NCBI GenBank assembly: GCA_903840355.1
Contig: CAIMFJ010000005.1
Location: 434,001 to 498,000, forward strand
DNA: 64,000 nucleotides
Source of the DNA: an uncultured Opitutia bacterium
Lineage (GTDB): Bacteria > Verrucomicrobiota > Verrucomicrobiia > Opitutales > UBA953
Direction: 5' to 3'
Under the pieces are notes generated by a model that saw nothing but the letters and a program-made list of their open reading frames with translations, was not told the origin of the DNA and did not search any database. The translations under genes were made by a program, and so were the position numbers. This document shows, one piece after another, positions 41,573 through 50,016 of the stretch (position 1 is its first letter; the number at the start of each line of letters is the position of its first letter).

Positions 41573-43807
41573 ATGGGTAAATACCCCATGGTTCTTCGCC
41601 TTCTTACCTTGCTAAGCCCGTTGTGGCTTTGTGCCATCCCTGCCACCACGTCCGAATGGCAGAAGCAATACGAGGCTTGGATAAAATACGCCCCACCCAC
41701 TAAACTAGAGGGGGTGCAGTGGTCGGCTAATGATGAGTGGCTCGTGTACCGCCATAAAAATGAGCAAGGTGTACCCACGTGGTACTTGGTGCATAGTGCC
41801 GACGGCAACTTGCGTCCGGCGTTTGAGAACGCGGCACTCCAAAAAGCGTTCCAAAATTTATTAAATAAAGAGTTCAACCCCAAGAATTGGCCCTTCACGC
41901 GTATCGTCCCACTCAATGACGGTCAATTGCGTCTCGAAAATGATCGGGAAGCGTGGACTTGGAATGGCGTAGATCAGCTCACGCCCGTTAAAACCTCTTC
42001 GCGGCAAACTCCGCAGAATAATAAAAATACCGGAACCCCTGAACGCCACCTTGATTTCTCCAAAGTCACTAACGTGTCCCCCGACGGACATTGGCAAGTG
42101 ACGCTTAAAGATGGTAATATTATTTTAGAGTCGCTCCGGGATAAAACCCTGCCGCACGCGTTAACCAATGATGGCACGGCCGAGGATGGTTTTACGGGGA
42201 GCATTCATTGGGCTCCAGATAGCCAACACTTTGCAATTTGGCGCGAACACCGCATTGCCACGCGTTTATACACGGTCGTTAATTCTGTTAAAAATACCAA
42301 GACGGACATCCCTTATGCCAAGCCTGGAGATCCCCAAACGGTACGCCAAACGTGGGTCTTCAATATAGCCAGCGGCCAAGGCTACAGCCCGAGCACCGAA
42401 GTATTGCCGCTGACTTTTGAAACCCATGAATTAGCGTGGACGTCTGATAGTACTCGACTCCGGAGTGAATACATCGAACGGGGATTCACGGGTCATGGTG
42501 TGCTCGAATTCGATACACGCCAAAAAAAGTGGCACGTCCTGTTCAAGGAGCATGACCCTAAATTCGTCTACACCTTTGCCACTAAGTTCCGCTATGACTT
42601 GGATGAAAATACTACTTTGTGGACGTCAGAACGAAGCGGCTACTTGCATCTCTACCGACTCAACCTCAACACCGGGGCCACACTCCTTGCTTTAACTCAG
42701 GGCAACTGGGTGATGAAGCAAGTACAACACATCGATACCACCGAAGGTCTGGTCTATTTCAGTGCCCTCGGTCGGGTCGCGAATGAAAACCCTTACTACC
42801 AGCACACCTGCAAAGTTGATTTACAAGGCCAACACCTTGTCGATCTCACCCCAGGCGACGCGCATCACACCGCGGAGTTTTCCCCGCATCGGCGCTACCT
42901 GATTGATACTGCTTCGCGCGTCGACCTTGCCCCGAGCTTTACGCTTCGACGCGGCCAAGATGGCCAAGCGATTAAAGTCCTCGCCACCGAGTCGCTTGAG
43001 CCGCTTCAAGCCGCTGGCTGGCAAGCCCCCATCCGCTTCCACACCACAGATCGTAATCAAAAATATGAAATCTGGGGCGTCATCAATCGCCCTTACCCCT
43101 TCGACCCGAAACAACATTATCCCGTCCTCGAAAACATCTACGCCGGCCCTCAGGATTCCTTTGTCCCCCGCTCCTTCAACGCTTGGGTGATGAACCACCG
43201 CGAACCTACGCTGCATGGTTTCTACGTCGTGCAGATTGATGGCTTAGGCACCTTCAATCGAGGCAAGGAGTTTCACCAAGTTTGCTGGCGTAACTTAAAG
43301 GACGCAGGGTTCCCCGATCGCATCAAATGGATGCAAGAGGCAGCGAAAATCGAACCGAGCATGGACCTCTCCCGCGTGGGGATTTTTGGCGGCTCAGCTG
43401 GAGGCCAAAACACCGCCCACGCTTTATTAAATTTCGGAGCGTTCTATAAAGCTGGTGCCGCCGATTGTGGATGCTACGACAATCGCATCGATAAACTCTG
43501 GTGGAATGAACAATGGATGGGCTACCCCATCGGCCCATGGTACGCCGCCAACTCCTGCGCCACTGATGCGGCCAAGCTAACCGGCAAACTTTTCCTCTCC
43601 GTGGGAGAATCCGATACGAACGTAGATGTGAAATGCACTTACGACCTTCGGGACGCCTTATTGGTGGCTGGCAAAAAAGACCTCTTCGAACTCCACGTCG
43701 TCCCCGGGGCAAATCACGGGGCCTGTGAACGAGGTGATATGCGTGAAAAGCGTCTTGAATTTTTCATCCACGCCCTGCACCCCCCTGATTCTCCGGAGTC
43801 AAAATAG
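41573..43807 (+). CDS. Exported S9-family peptidase, dipeptidyl-peptidase IV-like
   Basis: 744 residues. A signal peptide (VLRLLTLLSPLWLCAIPATT) is followed by a DPPIV-type beta-propeller (about 40-500) with repeated blades, for example HLDFSKVTNVSPDGHWQVTL and FTGSIHWAPDSQHFAIWREH. The C-terminal alpha/beta-hydrolase domain carries the triad: Ser in GIFGGSAGGQNTAHALL (about residue 605), Asp in LSVGESDTNVD (about 680), and His in VPGANHGACE (about 714). It would cleave dipeptides from peptides in the periplasm. It starts 17 nt after lutC, so it appears to ride on the rhamnose/lactate transcript; no metabolic link is evident. ATG at 41588 is an equally good start. Confidence 0.88.
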   Translation: MGKYPMVLRLLTLLSPLWLCAIPATTSEWQKQYEAWIKYAPPTKLEGVQWSANDEWLVYRHKNEQGVPTWYLVHSADGNLRPAFENAALQKAFQNLLNKEFNPKNWPFTRIVPLNDGQLRLENDREAWTWNGVDQLTPVKTSSRQTPQNNKNTGTPERHLDFSKVTNVSPDGHWQVTLKDGNIILESLRDKTLPHALTNDGTAEDGFTGSIHWAPDSQHFAIWREHRIATRLYTVVNSVKNTKTDIPYAKPGDPQTVRQTWVFNIASGQGYSPSTEVLPLTFETHELAWTSDSTRLRSEYIERGFTGHGVLEFDTRQKKWHVLFKEHDPKFVYTFATKFRYDLDENTTLWTSERSGYLHLYRLNLNTGATLLALTQGNWVMKQVQHIDTTEGLVYFSALGRVANENPYYQHTCKVDLQGQHLVDLTPGDAHHTAEFSPHRRYLIDTASRVDLAPSFTLRRGQDGQAIKVLATESLEPLQAAGWQAPIRFHTTDRNQKYEIWGVINRPYPFDPKQHYPVLENIYAGPQDSFVPRSFNAWVMNHREPTLHGFYVVQIDGLGTFNRGKEFHQVCWRNLKDAGFPDRIKWMQEAAKIEPSMDLSRVGIFGGSAGGQNTAHALLNFGAFYKAGAADCGCYDNRIDKLWWNEQWMGYPIGPWYAANSCATDAAKLTGKLFLSVGESDTNVDVKCTYDLRDALLVAGKKDLFELHVVPGANHGACERGDMREKRLEFFIHALHPPDSPESK

Positions 43808-43982
43808 GTCGCCTGGAGGGAGGCTAAAGGTGGACTAAAATCCGCAACTTTAGTTTTAAACCTAAATCAGCGTAAATTATTGCTAATGTGCGGTTTAACT
43901 ATTTTTAATATAAAAAATAACGACTTTTTTACGATGGGTTATTGACTCCCTTGTTCTATGCCCCAATGCAAACCCTTCAAGC
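43808..43982 (+). promoter_or_regulatory. AT-rich spacer: weak terminator and probable promoter
   Basis: 175 nt without a gene. Near its start is a small hairpin, ACTAAA at 43834-43839 with TTTAGT at 43849-43854 followed by TTT, a weak candidate terminator for the S9 peptidase transcript. The middle (about 43870-43935) is strongly AT-rich, including AATATAAAAAATAA, and probably carries a promoter for the next gene. TTGACT at 43943-43948 resembles a -35 box, but no fitting -10 follows. No RNA gene recognised. Confidence 0.4.
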
Positions 43983-45761
43983 ATGTTGAATTTCGCTAGC
44001 CAGTGTCTCGATCAGACCAAATCACTTCTTAAACTGAATCTTAGTTCCATTGCCAGCGACGGTAATGTAATCCCGGTTGAAGGGGAGGTATCGCGAGCCG
44101 ATGAGCCCGGCCACGTCGCCCTAGCCCTTGGGGAATACTTTCGTGCCACGGGTGATTTAAACCTAGAGCGTCAAAACATCGCCCAACTCGTTGCCAGCAC
44201 CATCACAGCCCAAGTAAAACTCAGCAAAGGCTCCGACAACGGCATGGCCTTTGCATGCCTTGGTCTACTCGCCTTCGGTCCCACTCGCGAGCGTAACCCT
44301 GTCTGGGAAATCCTCGCCCCCGAAACGCAAAAGCTCATCGATGAACGCCTGGCAATTCCGTGCGATCACCACGATCACGTGCAAGCTTTCGACATCGCTA
44401 AAGCGGTTTGTCGCTTCTCTTTTGGGTTAACGAAAAAAGATGAAACGGGCATCCTGGTGGATCGTTTCCTTGAACGCATCACGGCGGCTTCTTCGGGTGG
44501 CTTCCACGACGAAACTTCGAAGGCGGCTTCGGCGGATAATTTTGGCGGGACTTTCGATCTCTACGGTATTGTTGCCTTAATCTTCATCCGCCAAGCGTTG
44601 CAATTACACGCCAACATTCAATTGCGGGATGCTAAATTGCCCAAACTTCGCGTGCACGTGGAAAAATACCTGCGCGTGATTTTTGACACGGTACGCGATG
44701 ATGGCTTGGGCTGGTGCTACGGTCGTGGTATCGGTGCCTATGGTCAAATGCACTGCATCACCCTCATCTTGCAGGCGATGCGTGACCGCTGGATTGCTGC
44801 CGACAAAGAACTCCTCGGGCGCGACTTAGTCCTGCGTCTCTATTCTAATTTCTTCACGACGTTCTTCGACGTCGAACACGGCTCGATTGTTATCCGCGAT
44901 AGCGAACGCGACACCATTCCGGGACACACAACCCGGATGGCTAACTTCGATGCCGCTCGCTACCTCTCTCAATGGTCTCGCCTCACGCGCACCATCGGTG
45001 GCTCACTCGAGATCGCCAAGAGCACGAATAAGAATCCCGTTTGCCGTTATTTCCCTTACGACAAATCTGCACGCAAAGAACAGGGGTTGCTTTCTTATCA
45101 AGATCCCAATTCGGGATTACACGTCATCCTTCCCCTCGTCTCCTCTGGCACCCACCGTTTCTCCGATTCGCTGGCCTTCCCGCACATGCCAGGCGTCCTC
45201 GATTGGCCCGCCAATCGTCTCACTTCGCCCTTCATCCCGGAGTTCACCATCGGCGGCAAAGTTTACACCCCTTCCTTCTACGGCAAAAACAATCAGGTCG
45301 TAATGGGCACCAAAGCCCACACCTACCACTTCCGCTATGATCAACCTGACCTCATCGATAGCGATGAGAAGTTATCGAGCAATGTCGCGAGCTTGAAAGT
45401 CGACTGGGAATTCAACGGAGGCCGCATGGTCGGGCGCTTCGTTTTAACCCCTAAGGCTGCGATTACCTTGGACGAGTTTCGTTTAGTCCTCCCCATTGCC
45501 ACGACCCACAGTCGCATGACACCTGGTAACGCCTTGGTTCTGGGACCTGAATCACACCGCTGCGAAGTCTTGCGCGATGACTTCCATGCCGCTTGGGGCG
45601 AAACCAAAGTCGTCAGCGACGACCCCAAGCAACGCACCTACTGGGGCAAGGTTCACTTCTATCAAGTTTTAGAACGCGATAAGCCGATGGCCCTGCGAGT
45701 GGGCAACACCTACCACTTTGAAATCGCTTACCAGCCCCACATCGTGCGGGCCGGAGGCTAA
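43983..45761 (+). CDS. Unrecognised 592-aa protein, helix-rich N-terminus and beta-rich C-terminus
   Basis: I do not recognise the family. Residues 1-340 are rich in amphipathic helices with Gly/Trp/Tyr motifs such as GGTFDLYGIVALIFI (188-202) and DDGLGWCYGRGIGAYGQMHC (239-258), which recall the repeats of (alpha/alpha)-toroid polysaccharide lyases and hydrolases. A His/Asp cluster CDHHDHVQAFDIAK lies at 127-140. Residues about 380-592 look like a beta-sandwich (VDWEFNGGRMVGRFVLTPKA). This architecture is known from several lyase families, but no catalytic signature is secure. No signal peptide is seen. It follows an AT-rich spacer after the rhamnose operon, so action on a rhamnose-containing oligosaccharide is conceivable but unproven. 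Confidence 0.6.
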   Translation: MLNFASQCLDQTKSLLKLNLSSIASDGNVIPVEGEVSRADEPGHVALALGEYFRATGDLNLERQNIAQLVASTITAQVKLSKGSDNGMAFACLGLLAFGPTRERNPVWEILAPETQKLIDERLAIPCDHHDHVQAFDIAKAVCRFSFGLTKKDETGILVDRFLERITAASSGGFHDETSKAASADNFGGTFDLYGIVALIFIRQALQLHANIQLRDAKLPKLRVHVEKYLRVIFDTVRDDGLGWCYGRGIGAYGQMHCITLILQAMRDRWIAADKELLGRDLVLRLYSNFFTTFFDVEHGSIVIRDSERDTIPGHTTRMANFDAARYLSQWSRLTRTIGGSLEIAKSTNKNPVCRYFPYDKSARKEQGLLSYQDPNSGLHVILPLVSSGTHRFSDSLAFPHMPGVLDWPANRLTSPFIPEFTIGGKVYTPSFYGKNNQVVMGTKAHTYHFRYDQPDLIDSDEKLSSNVASLKVDWEFNGGRMVGRFVLTPKAAITLDEFRLVLPIATTHSRMTPGNALVLGPESHRCEVLRDDFHAAWGETKVVSDDPKQRTYWGKVHFYQVLERDKPMALRVGNTYHFEIAYQPHIVRAGG

Positions 45762-49257: not shown

Positions 49258-50016
49258 ATGCTTTCCGTAAGAATCATCCCTTGCCTCGATGTGCACGGCG
49301 GCCGTGTCGTCAAAGGAATCAAGTTTACGGAATTACGGGATGCGGGCGACCCAGTAGCCGTAGCTGCGGCCTACGAGAAACAAGGGGCCGATGAATTAGT
49401 ATTTTTGGATATTACGGCTTCCAGTGACGAACGGAAAACCATGATTGATGTCGTCGAGCGTACTGCCGACCAAGTTTTCATGCCCTTAACGGTCGGAGGA
49501 GGTTTACGTTCACTGGATGACATTCGCTTAATGCTCAATGCGGGAGCCGACAAAGTCTCGCTTAACACTTCAGCGGTAAAGACGCCTGAACTCATCCGTG
49601 AAGCTTCACGTAAATTCGGCAGTCAATGCATCGTGGTCGCCATTGATGCCAAACAAGTAGCCCCCGGTCGCTGGGAAGTTTTCACCCATGGCGGACGTAA
49701 CCCCACCGGTCTCGACGCCATTGCTTGGGCTAAAAAAGTAGCCGAACTCGGCGCGGGAGAAATCTTATTAACGAGTATGGATCGAGATGGCACGGCGTCA
49801 GGCTATGACGTCCCCCTCAACGCCGCGATTGCCCAAGCGGTCGAAGTGCCCCTGATTGCTTCCGGTGGTGCGGGCAACCTCGAGCACCTCGCCGAAGTGC
49901 TTAAAAAAGGCGGCGCCAGTGCCGTGCTCGCCGCCAGCATCTTCCACTTTGGTACCTACACCGTTCAGCAGGCCAAAGAATACCTTAAGCAGGCTGGGCT
50001 TCCCGTCCGACTCTAA
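49258..50016 (+). CDS. hisF: Imidazole glycerol phosphate synthase cyclase subunit HisF
   Basis: TIM-barrel cyclase that, with HisH, forms imidazole glycerol phosphate in histidine synthesis. 252 residues. The first catalytic Asp lies in [15 protein letters not shown] and the second in [42 protein letters not shown] and [13 protein letters not shown] supply the phosphate sites. hisH and the rest of the pathway are elsewhere, although hisC lies at 56-57 kb on the other strand. Its stop overlaps that of the convergent CNNM gene by 4 nt. Confidence 0.97.

Follow-up and report, generated by a model that had tools for sequence, protein, structure and literature searches.

Polysaccharide lyases that combine an alpha/alpha toroid with a beta-sandwich are mainly known as digestive enzymes, in which the N-termini of the inner helices line the toroid cavity. 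The fold group comprising families PL8, PL12, PL15, PL17, PL21, PL33, PL35 and PL39 is hallmarked by an N-terminal toroid and a C-terminal antiparallel beta-sheet, and its members, as far as Table 4 of PMC12088678 is concerned, mostly use a catalytic Asn (the neutraliser), a Tyr and a His, with the exception of some lyases in which Asp, Glu or Arg serves as the neutraliser. Herein, a 592-residue protein of this architecture (the toroid protein), encoded in the window, i.e., the whole 64,000-nucleotide stretch of DNA that was analysed, is described, and it is best read as a lyase-fold protein that the Opitutales have domesticated for housekeeping work in the cytosol. It differs from the lyases in that it carries no leader and is encoded by an order-wide core gene situated beside hisF and a second rho gene (rho2).

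The features of the locus are collected in the table below, where the limits of the 592-aa ORF agree with those of the original prediction, with an ATG start and a conserved N-terminus, in which F4, Q7 and C8 are invariant among 60 aligned orthologs. With 132 other distinct full-length orthologs, the ORF is a real gene, far beyond chance, and its own genome (G000) holds a single match to it. A hydrophobic leader was not detected near the N-terminus, the best 19-residue mean hydropathy being 0.78, which bears out the predicted absence of a signal peptide. The protein had also been left without a family, and the searches, with E limits of 1 for Pfam and 10 for both NCBIfam and the PDB sequences, returned no match, while the ortholog profile gave chance-level matches alone against PDB sequences (E 0.49 or worse). 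The AT-rich spacer that had been announced in front of the gene does exist, with an A+T content that is moderate.

Features of the locus, with positions in the window
Feature	Position	Strand	Basis
744-aa ORF between the lactate genes and the toroid gene	41573..43807		no NCBIfam match
Upstream spacer, 175 bp, 62% A+T	43808..43982	.	base composition
CDS of the 592-aa toroid/beta-sandwich protein	43983..45761	+	ORF list, ATG start; 132 other distinct full-length orthologs aligned
Alpha/alpha toroid domain (predicted), residues 1-337	43983..44993	+	AlphaFold; VIA-align Z 16-18 to GH105/GH88/epimerase toroids
Residues 128-136 (DHHDHVQAF), where lyases and DUF2264 have their NNW motif; the window has Asp131-His132	44364..44390	+	profile and wider-family alignments, counts
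Tyr194, equivalent of the DYY/FDRY tyrosine of relatives; Tyr in 125/133	44562..44564	+	profile and wider-family alignments, counts
Residues 240-257, motif DGxGWxYGRxxGAYGQMH, partly common to wider relatives (GRSxGx[YL]G)	44700..44753	+	alignments
Beta-sandwich domain (predicted), residues 353-589	45039..45749	+	AlphaFold of the whole and of 344-592 alone; VIA-align
His401, part of the FPHxPGxxD motif in the beta domain; conserved as His in 132/133, absent from aligned wider relatives	45183..45185	+	alignments
hisF	49258..50016	+	NCBIfam TIGR00735, over cut-off

The AlphaFold model, for which an alignment of 60 orthologs (A1) was used as input, reached a mean pLDDT of 92.5 and a pTM of 0.93, with helices up to residue 337 and strands from residue 353 on, so that the helix-rich N-terminal half and beta-rich C-terminal half foreseen from the letters are both found in it. 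Foldseek against the PDB matched the whole length of the model to the PL33 lyase 8r73 (E 4.9e-10), and whole-length matches were also obtained for PL12 HepC, the PL35 lyases GAGase II and VII, PL8 and dermatan sulfate epimerase; the VIA-align comparison with GAGase VII spanned 482 residues at 4.6 A, with a Z of 15.9. When the beta domain was folded alone (residues 344-592), its pLDDT was 90.5 and its Z to the beta domains of PL33, PL15, PL12, PL17, PL21 and PL35 was about 10-12, a range in which galactose mutarotases tie with them. The predicted fold thus has a beta-sandwich with an antiparallel sheet behind an alpha/alpha toroid, as in the fold group defined above, and it is most like that of PL33, PL12 and PL35; the domain order and overall fold are those of 8r73, HepC (4mmi/4mmh), GAGase II/VII (8khv/8khw), PL15, PL17 and PL21. 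The polysaccharide-lyase architecture, for which an AlphaFold and Foldseek check had been proposed, has thus been recovered by that check. No lyase family model of Pfam or NCBIfam matched the protein, and the 60 orthologs hit in Pfam, besides DUF2264, eight families with one or two members each, none of which is a lyase.

DUF2264 (PF10022) is the nearest named family, and the 592-aa protein appears to be a borderline relative of it, with collinear motifs in the toroid domain (NNW, DYY and DG..GRS..Y) that are common to both. By hhalign, the whole protein or its toroid aligned with DUF2264 at E 1.7e-4 to 3.8e-4 with a probability of only 36-49%, compared with E 0.62-0.71 for the reversed controls of the same queries (0.46-0.71 overall), while the beta domain alone gave E 0.52 and no alignment. 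The protein of the window itself had no Pfam match to DUF2264 and lies outside the family by its cut-off; weak matches were seen in 35 of 60 orthologs. Among the 30 orthologs that were re-scored, L095 attained 25.6 bits, just over the 25-bit gathering cut-off, and the other 29, led by L132 with 24.1 bits, were under the cut-off or without a match; a paralog from within the order (L238) scored 22 bits. DUF2264 proper is patchy, being over the cut-off in 31 of 141 class genomes, in contrast with the order-wide toroid gene. No mention of DUF2264 was found in the collection of PMC papers searched, and literature searches on signature or core genes of Opitutales, Opitutae or Verrucomicrobia, on histidine, on Rho and on heparinase gave nothing relevant among the matches listed.

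A more distant relative, WP_226746349.1, was found on a plasmid record of Asticcacaulis sp. AND118 (21.8% identity, E 4e-6), which was the only match of the plasmid search. It has no Pfam match itself, and relatives of it are encoded on replicons of Burkholderia, Paraburkholderia and Caballeronia. Both the toroid and the sandwich of these proteins align to the A1 HMM (51 bits, positions 135-494), and they have the GF.DE, FDRY and YGRSIGxYG motifs in common with the toroid protein, while they keep NN[YF] and have no equivalent of His401. The Asticcacaulis gene is accompanied by genes for a TonB receptor, two alginate-lyase-family proteins, GH88, GH3 and KduI, that is, a uronate-polymer utilisation cluster, unlike the rho2/hisF setting of the toroid gene. 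Within the order, paralogs were detected in G548 (151 bits, beside genes for GH1 and an ILVD/EDD dehydratase) and in G201 (69 bits). A GF.DE-type stretch, a 194-type Tyr and the GRSxGx[YL]G motif are common to the wider relatives and the paralogs, as read from the wider-family alignment after exclusion of the row L242_8649, a wrong-frame shadow ORF. The clade of the order is most plausibly a derived branch that was domesticated out of a carbohydrate-associated family, with a kinship that rests on 21.8% identity and HMM scores of 28-151 bits and a direction of change that is inferred.

Across the genome samples, the toroid gene was present in 53 of 57 relatives, with 28 of the 29 good genomes among them, in 34 of 189 class genomes, all of which belong to the 35 members of the order, and in 42 of 288 phylum genomes, which are 42 of the 43 of the order. 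The profile search found it in 81 of 385 class genomes, corresponding to 81 of the 82 of the order and to none outside it, and in 44 of 288 phylum genomes, namely 43 of the order and G256; these order totals rest on a listing in which unmatched members of the order come first. The match in G256, the sole one outside the order, covers residues 361-427 only (E 2.4e-6; 31-34 bits by HMM). In the class sample, 78 of the 81 genomes have a single match, G201 and G548 have the distant paralogs in addition, and G532 has an extra 52-residue fragment. Among the best 80 of 292 relatives, those that bear names are Opitutae, Coraliomargarita, Cerasicoccus and similar, and some of the others may be outside the order; two of these 80, named Polynucleobacter and Akkermansia, are about 80% identical and are probably misnamed bins. 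No relative was encoded at any of the 4 pattern matches of the IMG/VR phage search, and phage carriage of the gene was rejected as a candidate on that ground.

The toroid gene was not found in five genomes of the order, G010 (83% complete), G026 (75%), G042 (0.9 Mb, 93%), G050 (82%) and G103 (99%). In G010, 1.5 kb of contig precedes hisF, and the site of the toroid gene may therefore be beyond the contig. G103 has no native hisF either, its sole HisF-like match being 50% identical, and since both genes are absent, one gap or deletion that removed them together is possible. The HisF-like ORF of G103 lies with a HisH-like ORF (L231, 5307-6691) in a cluster that looks, with naming by eye, like one for surface sugars of the nonulosonate type. 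Two irregular copies were also noticed: the ortholog at G016:C27:16655-18423 is split into several pieces, one of them with a TGA, owing to a sequencing error or to decay of the copy, and the ortholog of G051 holds one TGA. The gene is kept in genomes of 1.1-1.4 Mb, including G598 (1.1 Mb, 95% complete) and G048 (1.3 Mb, 91%).

Constraint on the sequence is strong within the genus of the window. The median amino acid identity to the window is 80% for the toroid protein (45 loci), compared with 75% for MetG (43 loci), 73% for isochorismate synthase (38), 85% for HisF (32), 66% for the D-aminoacyl-tRNA deacylase (33) and 55% for the peptidase-like 744-aa ORF (27), which means that the toroid gene changes more slowly than that of methionyl-tRNA synthetase. 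The median dN in the genus is 0.147, with synonymous sites near saturation.

The neighbourhood of the gene was compared among loci whose ORF calls are mechanical and whose neighbour names were given by eye wherever no family search is cited. In the window, as in the genus, metG, the isochorismate synthase gene and the D-aminoacyl-tRNA deacylase gene lie between the toroid gene and hisF. The order offers 74 distinct distant loci (identity below 70%) for which 800 bp or more of downstream sequence is available; hisF follows directly 3' on the same strand in 60 of them, with gaps of -4 to 168 bp (median 93), and 14 are without a directly adjoining hisF, two of which (L069 and L070) have it 443-571 bp further on. 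A second, short rho gene is found directly 5' of the toroid gene on the same strand in 18 of 36 hand-chosen loci (35 loci and the window). NCBIfam NF006886 confirmed the short Rho in the five cases tested (376-404 aa); loci with this form include L209, L210, L211, L215 and L225. Full-length and short Rho occur together in 8 of 10 hand-chosen genomes (8 of 9 besides the window genome), and the short rho adjoins the toroid gene in half of the eight (G040, G048, G191 and G215). Other neighbours in some loci, named by eye, are acetyl-CoA-synthetase-like and pilin-like ORFs. In G041 (L221, 5302-7811) the toroid gene overlaps a fabG-like ORF by 4 bp, with acpP- and fabF-like ORFs next, and in G048 (L209, 7075-10224) it is 6 bp from an ORF like the GTPase Der, these names also being given by eye.

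The recurrent order of rho2, toroid gene and hisF would be explained if the protein served histidine biosynthesis, or the second Rho, as an accessory, a role to which the close hisF spacing and the NCBIfam-confirmed rho upstream both lend weight. Histidine synthesis is indeed suggested by gene order, but the toroid gene is kept where hisF was not found: in G598, which has no hisF at E 1e-20, in G048, and likewise in the incomplete G041, G051 and G053, according to a search that covered 80 of 97 genomes plus 9 of the other 17, all hand-chosen. It is also kept in genomes in which the only hisF found was 43-51% identical. In the members searched of the genera g27 and g39 (L201-L207 for three of them), only a 43-48% identical hisF was seen, with a weaker HisF-like match (28-32%) adjoining, and the native hisF seems to have been replaced while the toroid gene was kept. 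As for Rho, none was found in the window genome (best 22.7 bits) or, above 80 bits, in G598 (best partial match 80 bits), and TIGR00767 at E 1e-20 detected it in none of 41 genomes of the genus, 15 of which are at least 90% complete; a Rho link was rejected as the function because the toroid gene remains in all these settings. Since the gene is retained without hisF or Rho, its function is unlikely to lie in the synthesis of histidine or with Rho, and the retention pattern largely refutes the accessory role, which is regarded as very improbable.

According to the original prediction, the protein might be a cytoplasmic lyase or hydrolase that acts on imported rhamnose-uronate oligosaccharides together with the rhamnose genes. 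Such a role would suit the lyase fold and the occurrence of wider relatives in uronate and sugar clusters, and rhamnulokinase-like and rhamnulose-1-phosphate aldolase genes do end 5-7.5 kb upstream. The toroid gene, however, does not directly follow the rhamnose/lactate genes as had been stated, the 744-aa ORF, which reads by eye like an S9 dipeptidyl peptidase, lying between them; furthermore, no sugar-utilisation family, the rhamnose genes included, is among the reported neighbours common to the loci. The order-wide presence of a core gene, even in 1.1-1.4 Mb genomes, its rho2/hisF neighbours and a loosely kept catalytic triad also speak against a catabolic enzyme tied to rhamnose, which is therefore considered unlikely, if less so than the accessory role.

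The residues of the putative active site were compared with those of lyases by profile alignment with DUF2264 and the wider relatives, and for the His by rough position, rather than by superposition. The profile alignments put the Asn motif of the lyases at 131-133 and their Tyr at 194, while His401, in the core clade, lies near the lyase His by its rough place in the beta domain, which is a guess. Over the 133 distinct full-length sequences, one of which is that of the window, position 131 is Asn in 70, Asp in 56, Gly in 5 and His in 2, and position 132 is His in 118 and Tyr in 10, so neither is a conserved Asn. Position 194 is occupied by His, Gln, Trp, Ala, Met, Ser or Glu in 8 of the 133, and three of these come from genomes of small size, namely G598 (Ser), G048 (Met) and G041 (Glu). 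By these alignments, and in contrast with the lyases, the place of the catalytic Asn varies, the Tyr can be lost, and the Asn/Tyr/His triad is not strictly kept across the orthologs. The His/Asp cluster at 127-140, to which the original prediction had drawn attention, is mostly local: D128 (58), H132 (55), Q134 (60) and F136 (60) are kept among 60 sequences, but His is found at position 129 in only 15 and at position 130 in only 7. In all, 69 positions spread over both domains are invariant, and Glu41, His44, Gln255, Arg318 and Asp323 are kept in 133/133 and Tyr253 in 132/133.

These counts also bear on the possibility that the protein is a non-catalytic scaffold or regulator, whose lyase fold would have been retained as a platform for structure or protein binding after decay of the catalytic site. 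The drift of the triad equivalents, as at position 194, would be expected of such a platform, and so would invariant positions in both domains. Furthermore, conserved polar residues were not enriched at the N-termini of the inner helices (19/84, vs 18/81 around the outer helices, in an ortholog alignment that counted the window sequence twice), and the conservation pattern consequently singles out no active site. The strict retention of the five polar residues and of Tyr253 is, on the other hand, what a working site would show too, and the relatives outside the core clade reside in sugar clusters. A non-catalytic role accordingly ranks second, as a tentative alternative with perhaps half the weight of an enzyme acting on an endogenous sugar.

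That enzymatic role, in which a putative cytosolic enzyme acts on a sugar substrate made by the cell itself, is the most likely one, at about an even chance, and some enzymatic chemistry is predicted as likely. The toroid protein would descend from a carbohydrate-active family, and the cleft that separates its toroid from its sandwich may still bind a sugar or uronate, with an endogenous substrate and altered chemistry; the candidate working residues would be Tyr253, Gln255, Glu41/His44 and Arg318/Asp323 instead of the classical Asn/Tyr/His. Domestication for housekeeping is supported by the predicted fold, the near-universality in the sampled order, the constraint, the lack of a leader and the distant relatives in sugar clusters, together with the rho2-gene-hisF order in many families, the survival without these neighbours and a triad that is no longer strictly conserved. 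It is opposed by the variable triad equivalents, by polar conservation that is equal at inner and outer helices, and by the absence of the gene from the 0.9-Mb G042 at 93% completeness. Domestication may have taken place at the base of the Opitutales, where, in a scenario given an evenly balanced degree of belief, the lyase-fold protein would have turned into a housekeeping factor of the cytosol, present in nearly every member and endowed with a new chemistry or with no chemistry at all, that outlasted the loss of hisF and rho, its partners in the operon, as a clade-defining, essential-like core gene.

The finding cautions against annotating proteins of this kind as catabolic lyases from their fold alone. 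Meanwhile, the toroid gene is a candidate marker gene for the Opitutales, and the persistence of a near-universal, slowly evolving, leaderless lyase-fold protein in genomes of 1.1-1.4 Mb points to an unrecognised core function of the whole order.
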